A stretch of DNA of 47,106 nucleotides. Origin: Candidatus Parcubacteria bacterium. Lineage in GTDB: Bacteria > Patescibacteriota > Minisyncoccia > Phycocordibacterales > PALSA-1337. Position numbers and translations under genes: made by a program. Below the pieces are notes generated by a model. That model was not told the DNA's origin and did not search any database. It saw nothing but the letters and a program-made list of their open reading frames with translations. The DNA is taken from positions 1-47,106 of the forward strand of contig JAQBQT010000025.1 in NCBI GenBank assembly GCA_028286835.1. The letters are read 5' to 3'. Position 1 is the stretch's first letter. The number at the start of each line of letters is the position of its first letter. Shown in pieces: positions 17,264-37,872 of the stretch.

Positions 17264-17638
17264 CTACTTCAGATTCGCAAGGATCTTTTCCTTGTTGCCG
17301 GCGAAGTCGTTCTTCTCGCCCTTCGTTTCGTTGAGGGGGTACACCCAGATATGGGCGTGCGGCACTTCGTCGCCGAAGATCTTGCTCACCACCCATTCCG
17401 TGCCGAAGGCTTTGCGCTGGGCGAGCGCGATCGTGCGCGCGATCTCGAAATATGCGCCGGCATCCGGCACATCCCATACCCAGCGATGATGCTCCTTGGG
17501 TATGACTTGGACATGTCCTGTCGAAAGCGGATGGATATCGAGGAAGGCCATGAAGTCATCGTCCTCGTATACGATGTGAGCAGGGATTTCCTTAGCGACG
17601 ATTTTGCAGAAGATGCAGTCGGCTGGGGCGTTTTTCAT
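17264..17638 (-). CDS. HIT family hydrolase
   Basis: DCIFCKIVAKEIPA, FLDIHPLSTGHVQVIPKEHH, VPHAHIWVYP. Confidence 0.92.
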   Translation of the reverse strand: MKNAPADCIFCKIVAKEIPAHIVYEDDDFMAFLDIHPLSTGHVQVIPKEHHRWVWDVPDAGAYFEIARTIALAQRKAFGTEWVVSKIFGDEVPHAHIWVYPLNETKGEKNDFAGNKEKILANLK

Positions 17639-17671
17639 ATGGCCATTGTACTACATGATATACTGCATTTC

Positions 17672-19390
17672 ATGCCTGCGTACGCCACCCGCAAACCTCT
17701 GACAGTCGATGAGAAGAACAATCTTTCTTCGCATTCTGACCTTCTTGCACACCTTTTATTTCACCGCGGGATCACTGATTCCGAAGCCGCCGGGAGATTC
17801 CTTGCGCCAGAATATGACCGCGACACTCACGACCCGTTCCTCTTGAAGGATGCAGACAAGGCGGCTGCGCGCATCATCCAGGCCGTCCAGAGCGGCGAGA
17901 AGATCGCCGTGTATGCCGACTATGACGCCGACGGCATCCCTGGCGCCGCGCTTTTCAATGATCTTTTTTCCCGCATAGGCTATACGAATTTCGTCGTGTA
18001 CATTCCGCATCGCCACAACGAGGGCTTCGGCCTCCATGAGGGGGCCATCGATGAGCTCGCCGCTTCAGGCGTGAAGCTCCTCATCACAGTCGACTGCGGG
18101 ATCTCTGACAGGGCCGCGGCCGAGCATGCGCGCGAGAAAGGCATCGAAGTCATCATCACCGATCACCACGAGCCGCCAGGAGAATTGCCGCACGCGGTCG
18201 CAGTCATCGACCCCAAGCAGCCGGGTTGTGTATATCCTGACAAGAATCTCTGCGGCACAGGCGTCGCCTTCAAGCTCATTCAGGCCATCCTCGCCAAGAA
18301 CCGATTCGGCCTCAAGGATGGAATGGAAAAGTGGCTGCTCGATCTCGTGGGCATCGCGACGCTTTCCGACATGGTGCCGCTCACGGGGGAGAACCGCGTC
18401 TTCGCCCACTATGGCATGACCGTCCTCAGGAAAACCCAGCGCCTTGGCCTGAAGAGGCTTTTCACTAAGCTCAAGATCGCGCAGGCGCATCTCACTGAGG
18501 ACGACATCACCTTCATGATCACGCCGCGCATAAACGCAGCGTCTCGCATGGGGGTGCCTATGGATGCATTCCGTCTGCTCGCCGCCCAGGACGAAGCGAC
18601 CGCAAAAGAGTGCGCCGATCATTTGGATGAGATCAATAATGAGCGCAAAGGCGTCGTAGCCGCGCTCGTAAAGGACGTCAAAAAGAAAGTGCGCGAACGC
18701 CACGCCGGTATCATCCCGAGCGTCATCGTGTTGGGCAATCCGGAATGGCGTCCGTCCCTCCTCGGACTTGCTGCCAATTCATGCGCGGAAGAATTCCGTC
18801 GGCCAGTATTTCTCTGGGGACGCGATGGCGAGAATGCGCTCAAGGGATCATGTCGCTCTGAGGGCACGACGAATGTCGTCGAGCTCATGCGCGCGGTCCC
18901 TGCCGGAGTGTTCATGGAATTCGGCGGGCACAAGCACTCGGGCGGATTCAGTGTCGAGAGCGAGGCTGTGCATTTTCTGGAGAAGCATCTGAATGATGCA
19001 GCCGGTGTCGCGAGCGCGGAGAGTGCGAACAGTGCGCCGGACATGGTTGATGCGGAACTGTCGCTCGATGCGATCACGTCGCGCCTCCATGATGACATCG
19101 CCCGCCTTGCGCCCTTCGGCCTCGGCAACCCGAAGCCCCTCTTCGTGTTCAGGAATGTGAAACCCGTTTCTGTGCGGCGATTCGGCAAGGGCAATGATCA
19201 CGTCGAGCTCACGTTCGCGAAGGGGAACGGGTACAAAGTCTCCGCCATTTCTTTTTTCGGAGTGACCGAGGAATGGGCCGCCACGACCGAAGCCGGCATG
19301 AATATCGATCTCATCGCGTCGGTGGAGAAGTCGATGTTCCGCGGCCGGCCGGAATTGCGCCTGCGCGTCGTCGACGTCGTGCGTGCGTAG
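17672..19390 (+). CDS. recJ: Single-stranded-DNA-specific exonuclease RecJ
   Basis: DYDADGIPGAALF, VDCGIS, ITDHHEPP, VIDPKQ, LCGTGVAFKL; start chosen at ATG 17672 within a longer ORF. Confidence 0.93.
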   Translation: MPAYATRKPLTVDEKNNLSSHSDLLAHLLFHRGITDSEAAGRFLAPEYDRDTHDPFLLKDADKAAARIIQAVQSGEKIAVYADYDADGIPGAALFNDLFSRIGYTNFVVYIPHRHNEGFGLHEGAIDELAASGVKLLITVDCGISDRAAAEHAREKGIEVIITDHHEPPGELPHAVAVIDPKQPGCVYPDKNLCGTGVAFKLIQAILAKNRFGLKDGMEKWLLDLVGIATLSDMVPLTGENRVFAHYGMTVLRKTQRLGLKRLFTKLKIAQAHLTEDDITFMITPRINAASRMGVPMDAFRLLAAQDEATAKECADHLDEINNERKGVVAALVKDVKKKVRERHAGIIPSVIVLGNPEWRPSLLGLAANSCAEEFRRPVFLWGRDGENALKGSCRSEGTTNVVELMRAVPAGVFMEFGGHKHSGGFSVESEAVHFLEKHLNDAAGVASAESANSAPDMVDAELSLDAITSRLHDDIARLAPFGLGNPKPLFVFRNVKPVSVRRFGKGNDHVELTFAKGNGYKVSAISFFGVTEEWAATTEAGMNIDLIASVEKSMFRGRPELRLRVVDVVRA

Positions 19391-19437
19391 GTCCGGTATG
19401 ATTATTTTATCCCGCTTTATTTTTTTATCTTACTTCC

Positions 19438-20175
19438 ATGAAAGAATTCCAGACAACTATTTTCACTGACGGATCGTCGCGCGGGAATCCAGGACCAGGT
19501 GGATGGGGCGCGCTCGTCATCGCTGAGGATACAGTTCCTTGCGTGAAGGAGCTCGGCGGCGGAGAGGCTGACACGACGAACAACCGCATGGAGATCAAGG
19601 CCGCCATCGAAGGCCTCCGGCATTCGGATAAGAATTCAAAAATTATCGTGAACACGGATTCGTCATACCTTATAAATGGCATCACGAAGTGGGTGAAGGG
19701 TTGGAAGCGGAACGGCTGGAAAACGAAAACAAAAGACGAGGTGCTCAATCGCGATCTCTGGGAGGAGCTTCACGACCTAGCCGAGGGTCGCACGATCACG
19801 TGGTCGTATGTCGGAGGTCATGTCGGCGTTCTAGGCAACGAACGATGCGATCATATTGCAACGGCCTTTGCTGATGGCCGCGAATTGAAGCTCTACGACG
19901 GCCCGCTCGCCGGCTATGACCTTCCGAATGTACTCGATGTTTCACGCAATGAAATGAAGGCGGTCACAAAAAAATCCAGCTCGTCCCATTCGCGCGCACC
20001 GGCTCATTCATATGTGAGCTCTGTCGGGGGAGTGATAGAGACTCACCGCACATGGGCTGAATGCGAGAAGCGCGTAAAAGGTGCGCGGGGAGCCAGATAC
20101 AAAAAATCCACGAGTGCAGAAAATGAAGCGAGCATCATCGAAGAGTTCGGGGCGTTCGGAAATGAAATTGGGTAG
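19438..20175 (+). CDS. rnhA: Ribonuclease HI with C-terminal viroplasmin/hybrid-binding-like domain
   Basis: FTDGSSRGNPGPGGWG, NNRMEIKA, NTDSSYLI, NERCDHIA; C-term SYVSSVGGVIETHRTWAECEKRVKGARGARYKKS. Confidence 0.92.
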   Translation: MKEFQTTIFTDGSSRGNPGPGGWGALVIAEDTVPCVKELGGGEADTTNNRMEIKAAIEGLRHSDKNSKIIVNTDSSYLINGITKWVKGWKRNGWKTKTKDEVLNRDLWEELHDLAEGRTITWSYVGGHVGVLGNERCDHIATAFADGRELKLYDGPLAGYDLPNVLDVSRNEMKAVTKKSSSSHSRAPAHSYVSSVGGVIETHRTWAECEKRVKGARGARYKKSTSAENEASIIEEFGAFGNEIG

Positions 20176-20184
20176 CGCGTTTAT

Positions 20185-20244
20185 TTTTCTTCACGAAAAA
20201 TTGAATATTTTTTGAAGCGGATTTGAACCGCTTTCGGATAGTAT
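20185..20244 (+). promoter_or_regulatory. Predicted comEC promoter with three TTGAA repeats
   Basis: TTGAA at 20201, 20212, 20223 (11-bp steps); TAGTAT at 20239. Confidence 0.6.
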
Positions 20245-20250
20245 GTGCCC

Positions 20251-21627
20251 ATGCGAAAGGGCACATTTATTTTTTGGAGTCTGTTTGTTGCGGCTGCGGC
20301 GGTGCGCATCGGCATGTCGTTCACGAGGTCGCTTCCGGATGCGGGTGCGTGCCTGATGCATGTCGACTTTGGAACGGGCACCGTTGCTGAAGATCCTGAA
20401 CGCAAAGATTCAGGACAGGTATTCGTCGTGGCTGCGGAAAAAATTTTTGTGATGCCGCAGGATCTGTGCGCGCACGATATCCTCATCCGTATCAAGACGA
20501 AGCTCTATCCGCGGTTCGCGTATGGTGATCGCATCGTTTTCACGGGCAAGCTCTTAGCACCAAGGAATTTTTCTAGTGACAGCGGCCGGGTCTTCGACTA
20601 TCAGGGATACCTCGCGAAGGACGACGTGTTCTATGAGATGAAAAGCGCGGTCGCGGTCATGGCTACAAGCTCAGGAAAGTTTTCTCTGCCGTCATCATTG
20701 TTCACTATCAAGCGACGCTTTGTCGCGCACCTCGAGCGCGCGCTTGGTGAGCCGCATGCGGCTCTGGCAGCGGGGCTTGTCGTGGGGGAGAAGAGCGCGC
20801 TCGGCAAAGATCTTCTTGATGACTTCCGCATCGTCGGGCTCATCCATGTCGTCGTCTTGTCCGGTTTCAATATCACCATCGTCGGCATCGCGCTCCGTCG
20901 GCTTTTGTCGCGGCTGCCACGGGTGTGGGGCATCGCAGTGGGCGGCATCGGGATCATGCTCTTCGGCATCCTCGTAGGAGGAGGCGCGACAGTGGTGCGC
21001 TCATGTTTCATGGCAGGCATCGCTCTCGTCGCCGATCTGATCCGCCGCGACTACAGCGTCCATCGGGCGCTCGCGTTCGCGGCCCTCATCATGCTCATCC
21101 AGAATCCCTTCATCCTGCTTCACGATCCTTCTTTCCAGCTCTCATTCCTGGCGACCGTCGGGCTCCTCCTCTTGGCCGGACCTGTCGAGTCCAAGCTCGG
21201 CTGGATCCCGGATGCGTTCGGCATGAGGGGCACTGTCGCTTCGTGCTTGGCAACGCAGATCTTTGTCTCGCCCTTCATTCTCTATATGATGGGGCAGATC
21301 TCTCTTATCGGTATTCTGGTCAACATCATTGTTCTCCCATTCATTCCCGCCACGATGCTTCTCGTGTTCCTCACTGGCGCGCTCGGCTTTGTTTCATATC
21401 CGCTGTCGCTCGCCGCCGGATGGGGAGCGCATCTTCTGCTGCAGTACGAATTATTCACTGTGACCCATTTCGCCAGGCTCCCGTTCGCCGCAATGCACAT
21501 ACCACCCTTCTCGGGGTGGTATGTGGGCGCATTCTATATTTTGTTTTGTGCCGCGTATCTTTTTAGAGGGAAGCCCCGCTCGCTTTTTGAAAATTCTGCT
21601 CGATCACGGACCAGTTCAGATTATTGA
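20251..21627 (+). CDS. comEC: ComEC/Rec2 competence channel protein without MBL domain
   Basis: DUF4131-like N-region, GLVVGEKSALGKDLLDDFRIVGLIHVVVLSGFNITIV, multiple TMs. Confidence 0.88.
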   Translation: MRKGTFIFWSLFVAAAAVRIGMSFTRSLPDAGACLMHVDFGTGTVAEDPERKDSGQVFVVAAEKIFVMPQDLCAHDILIRIKTKLYPRFAYGDRIVFTGKLLAPRNFSSDSGRVFDYQGYLAKDDVFYEMKSAVAVMATSSGKFSLPSSLFTIKRRFVAHLERALGEPHAALAAGLVVGEKSALGKDLLDDFRIVGLIHVVVLSGFNITIVGIALRRLLSRLPRVWGIAVGGIGIMLFGILVGGGATVVRSCFMAGIALVADLIRRDYSVHRALAFAALIMLIQNPFILLHDPSFQLSFLATVGLLLLAGPVESKLGWIPDAFGMRGTVASCLATQIFVSPFILYMMGQISLIGILVNIIVLPFIPATMLLVFLTGALGFVSYPLSLAAGWGAHLLLQYELFTVTHFARLPFAAMHIPPFSGWYVGAFYILFCAAYLFRGKPRSLFENSARSRTSSDY

Positions 21628-22168
21628 AGAAGTCCTCGATGTAATTCTTCTTGCCGGAAGGCTGGTAGTCTGCGACATACGAATGCTCCCACATATCCAT
21701 GCCGAGGATCATCGTGCAGTTCTGCAGCTGGCCGAGGTGCTGCTCGTCCACCCATGAATTGAGGAGGCGCTTGTCAGCATTGTCATACCAGAGGACCGCC
21801 CAGCCGATGCCGCGCGTGAGGCCGAGCGCTTTGAATTCCATGAGCCACGCATCGAATGAGCCCCATGTTCCGGCGATGAGCTTCCTGAGTTGGCTTGAAT
21901 CGGACAAGGCAGCAGCCCCGCCCTGCAGGGAAGCGAAATACGCTTCATGATTGCGCATGCCGTTGAATTCGAAGCTGAAGCGGCGCATCAGCTCTCCGAG
22001 CGCGTACGCATTTTTTTCGGAGTCCTTCTTGCATTCGTCGATCTTCTCGAAGATAGTATTGGCGTTCTTCACATAGCCCTGATAGAGCTTGAGATGCTCC
22101 TCTATGGTCTTTGCCGAGATGCCCTTGAGGGCGGGGATCGTAAACGTCTGCGCGGTGAATGGTTTCAT
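21563..22168 (-). CDS. sodA: Superoxide dismutase, Fe/Mn family
   Basis: Ligand context: EEHLKLYQGYV, RNHEAYFASL, LGMDMWEHSY. Confidence 0.93.
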   Translation of the reverse strand: MKPFTAQTFTIPALKGISAKTIEEHLKLYQGYVKNANTIFEKIDECKKDSEKNAYALGELMRRFSFEFNGMRNHEAYFASLQGGAAALSDSSQLRKLIAGTWGSFDAWLMEFKALGLTRGIGWAVLWYDNADKRLLNSWVDEQHLGQLQNCTMILGMDMWEHSYVADYQPSGKKNYIEDFFNNLNWSVIEQNFQKASGASL

Positions 22169-22192
22169 GGTTGTATTGGTTATGAATTTAAC

Positions 22193-22252
22193 TTTTCTTC
22201 ATGAAGATTTGAATCTTTTTTGAACACGCCTTGAACTGCTATTTATTATACT
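22193..22252 (+). promoter_or_regulatory. Predicted promoter with three TTGAA repeats upstream of the MBL-like gene
   Basis: TTGAA at 22209, 22220, 22231 (11-bp steps); TATACT at 22247. Confidence 0.6.
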
Positions 22253-22261
22253 CGATTTGTA

Positions 22262-23176
22262 ATGATAAAAGGCGCATCAAAACAAGTCTTCGTACTTGCC
22301 GCCGGAGCAGCTGCTCTGGCCGGGGCGGGAGGCTACGCCTGGTATGAATCGCGCCGTCCGGCTGTCTTTGAGGCATATATCTTCAATACTCCTGGCTCGC
22401 TCTCTGCTTTCATCCGCACGCCAGATGATTCGAGGATCCTTATCGGAGGGGGATCCAATGCGGATATCGTCAGGCGCCTTACCGGCGTTCTACCTTTCTA
22501 CTCCCGCCGCATCGATGCGCTTATCGTCCCCAACACCGATACCAGGAGCGTCACCGGTCTTGCGGAAGTGGTAGGCCGATATGATGTCAGAAAAGTCCTT
22601 ATTCCGAGTTTGACTCTCTTCAGTCTTGGCCTAGTCAGCACACGTGATCCGGCCTACGCCGCTTTTCTGGAAACGGTAGCCGCTCGCCATATTCCCGTTG
22701 AAGAATATTCGGCTGGCACGCATCTTTCATTCGGGACTGTGAATGCGTCAGTTCTATTTCCGATCTCAGAAGATTCATTCAGGTATTCAAAAGCCAGCAG
22801 TCCGGAATTATGCCTGCGCGTATCATATGGAGAGGCGTCACTCCTCTTCATAGGCGCGGCGACTCCCAAGGTTCAGAAGTTTGTCGCAGCCTCCAGTACC
22901 GAAAGCAACGCCCTTATCGTCTCGCAGAGCACTGGTCAAGGAAATATTTCCAGGGAATTATTGGAAGCCGTTCGCCCTGGCTATCTCGTGTATTCCCAGG
23001 CGCTCTCAAAATCCTCTTCGAAGCCGAAGCTCAAATCCGCAGCCAAGACAAATAAAAAAGCGGCGAACAAAAAAGCCGACTCGCTGGCCGGCATTCTTTT
23101 GGATCATCATTTCAATATCAGAGAAAGGGGAGAGGTCAAGATCACCTCGGACGGAACGAGCGTAGAGATTATTTGA
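22262..23176 (+). CDS. Membrane-anchored degenerate ComEC-type MBL-fold protein
   Basis: N-terminal TM; ILIGGGSNADIVRRLTGVLPFYSRRIDALIVPNTDTRSVTGLAEVVGRYDV matches the ComEC MBL skeleton but lacks metal-ligand residues. Confidence 0.72.
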   Translation: MIKGASKQVFVLAAGAAALAGAGGYAWYESRRPAVFEAYIFNTPGSLSAFIRTPDDSRILIGGGSNADIVRRLTGVLPFYSRRIDALIVPNTDTRSVTGLAEVVGRYDVRKVLIPSLTLFSLGLVSTRDPAYAAFLETVAARHIPVEEYSAGTHLSFGTVNASVLFPISEDSFRYSKASSPELCLRVSYGEASLLFIGAATPKVQKFVAASSTESNALIVSQSTGQGNISRELLEAVRPGYLVYSQALSKSSSKPKLKSAAKTNKKAANKKADSLAGILLDHHFNIRERGEVKITSDGTSVEII

Positions 23177-37089: not shown

Positions 37090-37872
37090 CTAATTTGCGA
37101 GGGGAAGTATGAGGCTGAATGTGGATCCTTTGCCAACTCCTTCCGAATAGGCCTGGATGCTTCCGCCGTGCCGTTTCATAACACTCTGTGCCAGGAATAG
37201 CCCTACGCCAAGGCCTTCCGTGTCCATGGACTGAGCATCCTTGGTCCGATAGAACTTGCTGAACATGTGCGACAAGTTGTGCGGGTCGATACCTATTCCA
37301 TTGTCCGTGACGGACAGGATGGCCTTGCGCTTGTTCACGGTTATATCTACCGAGATGTTGCGGCCCGGAGGGGTATAGGAGCAGGCGTTCTCCATGAGCG
37401 TGCCGATGACGAAATCCAAACGCGGCCGGTCTGCTTTGACCATGACTTCAGGCTGAACGCTGGTGAGGGACATGAAGAGGTTCTTTTCATGGAATGCGGT
37501 CTTTGATGTTTCCATGATGCTGCGGGCAAGATCGCAGAGATTGAGGACCTCGAAATTATATGTCGAGTGGCCCTTGCCCGCGGCGTCCGTGAGCTCGACC
37601 AGCGTGCCGGTGAGCTTGATGAGATTCTCATTGGATTTTCTCAGGTCATCGAGCTGCTGCTTCTTATATTGGTCCTGCTCTTCAGTGATAAGCCCTTCAG
37701 TGGTCCACTTGATCTGGGTGAGGGGAGTGCGGAATTTATGAGCGATGATGGTGATGAACTCATACTTCAGGCTCTCGTTCTCGCGCAGCTTGCGGTATAT
37801 GATGACTCCGACAAGGCTCGTGACCGCTACGATGACGATTGCTGCGAGAGAAATAAGGATGAGTGTGTCCAT
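37090..37872 (-). CDS. Membrane sensor histidine kinase
   Basis: TM N-term, H-box IIAHKFRTPLTQIKW, N-box LMENACSYTPPG, G1 VTDNGIGID, G2 GLGVGLFLAQSV. Confidence 0.95.
   Translation of the reverse strand: MDTLILISLAAIVIVAVTSLVGVIIYRKLRENESLKYEFITIIAHKFRTPLTQIKWTTEGLITEEQDQYKKQQLDDLRKSNENLIKLTGTLVELTDAAGKGHSTYNFEVLNLCDLARSIMETSKTAFHEKNLFMSLTSVQPEVMVKADRPRLDFVIGTLMENACSYTPPGRNISVDITVNKRKAILSVTDNGIGIDPHNLSHMFSKFYRTKDAQSMDTEGLGVGLFLAQSVMKRHGGSIQAYSEGVGKGSTFSLILPLAN

Follow-up and report, generated by a model that had tools for sequence, protein, structure and literature searches.

The 11-bp-periodic arrays that precede both parts of a split comEC in a Candidatus Parcubacteria genome (GenBank GCA_028286835.1) are probably tandem direct-repeat operators through which a PhoB/CiaR-like response regulator, for which the protein encoded on contig C21 is the best candidate, activates a competence regulon. 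They were first seen in a 47,106-nt stretch of contig JAQBQT010000025.1, analysed as a whole and referred to here as the window. To that earlier, sequence-only reading we add a candidate regulator and a genus-wide regulon, using pattern and model searches of the whole genome plus short stretches of it. The result predicts from sequence how this lineage of uncultured, very small bacteria switches on DNA uptake.

Probable operator arrays at a split comEC

The comEC channel gene (20251–21627, + strand) encodes DUF4131 and Competence (PF03772) domains and no metallo-β-lactamase (MBL) domain; it is directly preceded by recJ and an RNase H gene (17351–20175). Its missing domain appears to be encoded by a separate gene, mbl (22262–23176, + strand). 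TTGAA starts at 20201, 20212 and 20223 before comEC and at 22209, 22220 and 22231 before mbl, and all six positions, the 11-bp step and both −10 hexamers, as reported earlier, were exact on rechecking. The hexamers, TAGTAT (20239–20244, +) and TATACT (22247–22252, +), each begin 16 nt past the start of the last unit. No TTGACA-like hexamer is found 16–18 nt upstream of the −10 at either gene, in agreement with the claim that a good −35 is absent. The last repeat reads TTGAAC in both arrays, as had been noted, and so does the middle mbl repeat. The description of three TTGAA per array holds for exact units; the arrays themselves are longer and belong to a type with 4–10 degenerate TTNAW units. 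A TTCAC at 20190 extends the comEC operator to four units (TTCAC-N6-TTGAA-N6-TTGAA-N6-TTGAA, 20190–20227, +), and TTTAA at 22187 and TTCAT at 22198 bring the mbl operator to five 11-bp units (22187–22235, +). The identity of 28 out of 32 bases between the flanks (20185–20216 versus 22193–22224) was reproduced exactly. An Fe/Mn superoxide dismutase gene (21563–22168, − strand) diverges from the mbl array and is a possible, unproven second target.

The MBL-like protein gave no match in Pfam or NCBIfam. Its AlphaFold prediction (pLDDT 85.6) has as its best PDB match in Foldseek the β-lactamase-like domain of ComEC (9ic4, E 3.5e-18), and structure prediction thus settles the fold as that of a metallo-β-lactamase. 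The protein is a detached ComEC C-terminal domain with an N-terminal membrane helix and without the metal ligands: the HxHxDH motif is missing (PNTDTRSVTGL stands in its place), as it is in the 14 aligned relatives, 15 of 15 sequences in all. ComEC C-terminal domains with metal-dependent nuclease activity are described in PMC8579336. Because the motif is lost, the MBL-like protein is probably not an active nuclease.

Arrays of this kind are rare. With up to three mismatches the triple occurs 13 times in the window, compared with 1.23 ± 0.99 in shuffled sequences. The exact pattern TTGAA-N6-TTGAA-N6-TTGAA is confined to the two window sites in the whole 698-kb, 96.6% complete genome, where a reversed control pattern has no match and about 0.002 exact triples are expected given how often TTGAA occurs in the window. 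The worry that the array might be frequent at random sites was thereby answered, and chance or a common background pattern is ruled out by the shuffles, the reversed control and the expected number. When the −10 was included and three mismatches were allowed, nine places were found (control zero), seven of them beyond comEC and mbl. A sequence-only model built from an alignment of eight sites gave ten matches at E < 1e-6 in the same genome. These correspond to nine array regions, the long array on contig C25 having been matched in two parts. As eight of these regions had served to train the model, finding them again is no independent evidence, which comes instead from the pattern searches and from the relatives.

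Outside the window, arrays lie upstream of rpsF-ssb-recA (in this gene order), of a small reading frame followed by scpA-scpB, of an LCAT-like secreted lipase and of a short gene whose product starts MSLEQKDIELL. Others are found in the region before a D-Ala-D-Ala carboxypeptidase gene (contig C26), immediately 3′ of the contig C21 response regulator gene, and upstream of small reading frames that follow two tandem histidine kinase genes (contig C15, 1–3139). The two kinase genes are directly upstream of that array, which has eight units.

Conservation in relatives and the genes that carry arrays

The relatives compared were Candidatus Taylorbacteria and other Parcubacteria, the genome studied here being of the Taylorbacteria type. 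We scored 11-bp-periodic TTNAW units against dinucleotide shuffles of each sequence and called an array at p < 0.01. Genes for ComEC are present in 116 of 119 genomes of the order. Within the genus, 22 of 28 comEC loci carry an array in the upstream 130 nt, or 21 of 28 when 600 nt are searched, and none of the 28 comEC gene bodies used as a control does. Conservation upstream of comEC in close relatives, the footprint that the earlier proposal called for, is thus seen, and the comEC genes of some members (G008 and G014, for example) have no array above threshold. In other genera and families of the order the array was called at one of 20 comEC loci, that of G030. This genome belongs to another family, and its array, the lone one upstream of comEC outside the genus, is in phase.

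The mbl gene is preceded by an array in 12 of 14 named relatives. comM, located by its own family model independently of the arrays and passing the TIGR00368 cut-off, has one at 24 of 30 loci (23 with an in-phase −10); the comM family model has no match in our own genome. Starting from the arrays instead, a PilB/GspE/ComGA-like ATPase recurs as a target in about eight genomes; it scores well on the GspE, PilB and ComGA models and passes no equivalog cut-off. The same survey returned rpsF-ssb (about eight genomes), LCAT-like lipases (about ten) and the MSLEQ protein (about eight), and less frequently pilins (three), PemK-like proteins (three) and RmuC (one). In G044 and G047, genes for PemK-like, LPD3 and Gp49-like proteins have array promoters, some in several copies.

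The operator is accordingly common to uptake and recombination genes across species, namely comEC, comM, ssb-recA, the pilus ATPase and pilin; dprA, comFC and comEA are not among the genes recognized beside arrays. Its targets outside competence include scpAB, the D-Ala carboxypeptidase, the LCAT-like lipase and toxin-like genes. The co-regulated DNA-uptake module proposed from the window is thus supported, and ssb-recA, comM, the pilus ATPase and pilin join it. Since rpsF, scpAB, the lipase and toxin-like genes carry the same kind of promoter, "dedicated" was too strong a word for its activator, whose regulon would be wider than DNA uptake.

The breadth of this list leaves room for a different reading, in which the same regulator governs a general envelope, DNA-stress or life-cycle response and the comEC genes are only some of its targets. 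The rpsF-ssb-recA, scpAB, D-Ala-D-Ala carboxypeptidase, LCAT-like lipase, PemK and Gp49-like genes would all fit such a response. However, comM (24/30) and comEC (21–22/28) are among the most consistent targets, and the pilus ATPase, pilin and ssb-recA suit uptake and recombination. We regard the general response as a possible, though clearly less probable, account than a competence regulon.

Promoter anatomy is shared across the set. Of 63 arrays, 43 have a TANNNT hexamer that begins 15–16 nt past the first base of the last unit, where about 1.7 would be expected at any single offset, and 17 further TANNNT at 4–5 nt mark the same place if array detection overran by one unit. Array length varies from 4 to 10 TTNAW units across genomes, with only TTNA near-invariant. 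The start codon falls 6–9 nt past the −10 at 17 of 19 comEC loci and 23 of 28 comM loci; in the window the ATG follows 6 nt past the −10 for comEC, a near-leaderless arrangement, and 9 nt past it for mbl. Transcription usually starts about 7 nt past the −10. If it does so here, the comEC and comM mRNAs would be leaderless or nearly so.

A palindrome, ATGTGCCC-ATGCGAAA-GGGCACAT, surrounds the comEC start codon (20243–20266). It has a p value of 0.01 in our genome, and p is below 0.05 at seven of 26 loci; similar but differing inverted repeats occur around the comEC start in some relatives. Part of its 5′ arm would fall upstream of the expected transcript start.

The candidate regulator, the adjacent hairpin and operator likeness within genomes

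Outside the window, contig C21 encodes a response regulator that is the genome's sole PF00486 protein. It combines a receiver domain (PF00072, 9.5e-23) with a winged-helix Trans_reg_C domain (PF00486, 4.1e-25) and passes no PhoB or PhoP equivalog cut-off. An array lies 3′ of the orthologous regulator gene (SNTVEAHIRN type) in 21 of 24 genus genomes, whereas none of six non-orthologous OmpR-family regulators of the same genus has one downstream. Four genomes, all incomplete, lack a PF00486 match; one of them, G045 (87% complete), has many arrays. Since the unit sequence is loose, the identification of the regulator rests on anatomy, adjacency and uniqueness, and on these grounds the operator switch is most likely worked by the cell's only OmpR-type response regulator. 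The earlier suggestion of an OmpR/PhoB-type activator encoded outside the window is strengthened by this candidate, to which binding and activation may be ascribed. The regulator gene has no adjacent kinase. Three histidine kinases are candidate partners for the orphan, two on contig C15 and a small one in the window (HisKA and HATPase_c, 37090–37872, − strand) in a ribosomal protein region.

We propose that the phosphorylated C21-type regulator would occupy successive TTNAW half-sites, 11 bp apart, as dimers lined up along one helix face. The last half-site ends 10 nt upstream of the −10, and the last dimer would cover the position of the missing −35 and take its place, bringing in RNA polymerase in the manner of a class II activator. 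Transcription would begin at the start codon or a few nucleotides from it. In this way comEC and the detached MBL-like domain would be induced along with rpsF-ssb-recA; comM, the PilB/GspE/ComGA-like pilus ATPase and pilins would join them in relatives to form a competence regulon of the Taylorbacteria genus. The array 3′ of the regulator gene would drive a small structured RNA, probably a post-transcriptional arm or feedback of the regulon. We infer each element of this scheme (the identity of the regulator, binding, activation, leaderless transcription, expression of the RNA and physiological competence) from sequence.

The arrays might instead be bound by another protein, a helix-turn-helix activator or repressor that has the regulator locus as merely one of its targets. 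The specificity of OmpR-family proteins is unreadable from sequence, and arrays of up to ten units would also suit a cooperative repressor or a nucleoid-type protein. Yet 11-bp direct repeats 10 nt from a −10 that lacks a −35 are the class II layout of the OmpR family, the genome has a single such regulator, and arrays follow its orthologues and not the other OmpR regulators (21/24 versus 0/6). We consider a different binding protein unlikely, and the C21 regulator remains the preferred candidate.

Just after the −10 of the regulator-adjacent array is a hairpin with a GUCGA-type loop that is common to genus genomes (positions 1855–1910 of locus L013 on contig C21, 3′ of the response regulator gene; equivalents in L111–L138). 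Its stem covaries, with 20 cells changed on both sides and none of 500 shuffles reaching as high a value, and pairing is possible in 87.5% of cells against at most 48.4% when the alignment is slid. A CATCTTCC-like pyrimidine stretch follows the hairpin in many genomes. Searched against Rfam, the sequences gave only tRNAs at gathering thresholds; the hairpin itself matched no RNA even when E values up to 1 were admitted, and no Rfam element was recognized in the window. Run on 249 genomes of the order, a model of the array end, −10 and hairpin picked out the sampled genus members with hardly any other match; outside the genus it had one borderline match, in G219, under the stricter filters of that search. 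The same model still found arrays of our own genome that have no hairpin, though weakly. These data suggest that the hairpin region is probably a small RNA; the alignment of its middle and 3′ part is too poor to define its length.

Within a genome, operators that belong to different genes share 66% identity; between genomes, the operators of a given gene share only 51% (permutation p 0.0005), suggesting concerted evolution or operator copying. In G023, G004, G044 and G047, for instance, near-identical operators stand at different genes with differing flanks. Such likeness is expected if all sites track the drifting specificity of one regulator or if operators are copied within a genome, and it accounts for the 28/32 match between the window arrays. 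We reject a recent duplication of one promoter carrying no regulatory information as highly improbable: the near-identical flanks and the general likeness of arrays within a genome would fit it, but identity drops to 51/77 when the comparison is extended to 77 nt, and in relatives both comEC and the MBL gene keep arrays that differ in sequence and agree in period and −10 phase.

The most specific form of our proposal is that an OmpR-family regulator acts as competence master through long arrays that co-evolve within each genome, near-leaderless genes and a new small-RNA family encoded 3′ of its own gene. We judge the chances of this full combination to be about even.

Comparison with known systems

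In the open-access papers searched we found no description of a competence regulator for these Patescibacteria. In Saccharibacteria, likewise patescibacterial, ComEC-dependent transformation has been demonstrated (PMC10633639), and we found no wording on regulation or a response regulator in that paper. Naming a candidate regulator, its putative operator and its genes opens the control of DNA uptake to experiment, also in a heterologous host, and could show when transformation of these uncultured cells is possible. The interest of the conserved RNA and of the operators' concerted evolution, genome by genome, extends to how regulation evolves in reduced genomes generally.

ComK, ComX and TfoX with CRP each turn on uptake and recombination genes together, and the proposed regulon would likewise place both under one switch. 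To our knowledge, none of them is an OmpR-family response regulator that uses 11-bp arrays. As for the target itself, the window protein shares its predicted fold with the C-terminal metallo-β-lactamase domain of ComEC (PDB 9ic4) and differs from that domain (PMC8579336) in being a separate membrane-anchored protein whose metal-ligand motif is lost.

The promoters resemble the class II boxes of PhoB and PhoP, which are also 11-bp direct repeats over the −35 position about 10–12 nt before the −10; the PhoP box lies about 12 nt upstream (PMC3335776). PhoB and PhoP usually have one or two boxes of another sequence, whereas the arrays here are long and stand at near-leaderless genes, with competence genes among the targets. 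The closest parallel is CiaR and the csRNAs of Streptococcus (PMC3091779, PMC4507080). The CiaR site, TTTAAG-N5-TTTAAG, has an 11-bp period and ten nucleotides to the −10 (PMC3091779), and an OmpR-family regulator, a direct repeat of this period and this spacing would be common to both systems, as would small RNAs in the regulon and a connection to competence, both of which are inferred here. CiaR sites have two units with an invariant final G, unlike the 4–10 TTNAW units of our arrays, which do not conform to the CiaR motif NTTAAG-N5-TTTAAG: in the comEC set the base after the five-base core is C at a frequency of 0.57 and G at only 0.05. The csRNAs pair with comC and repress competence, whereas the arrays described here sit at comEC and comM, and the putative RNA has no Rfam match. 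The parallel with CiaR is one of mechanism, not of membership.
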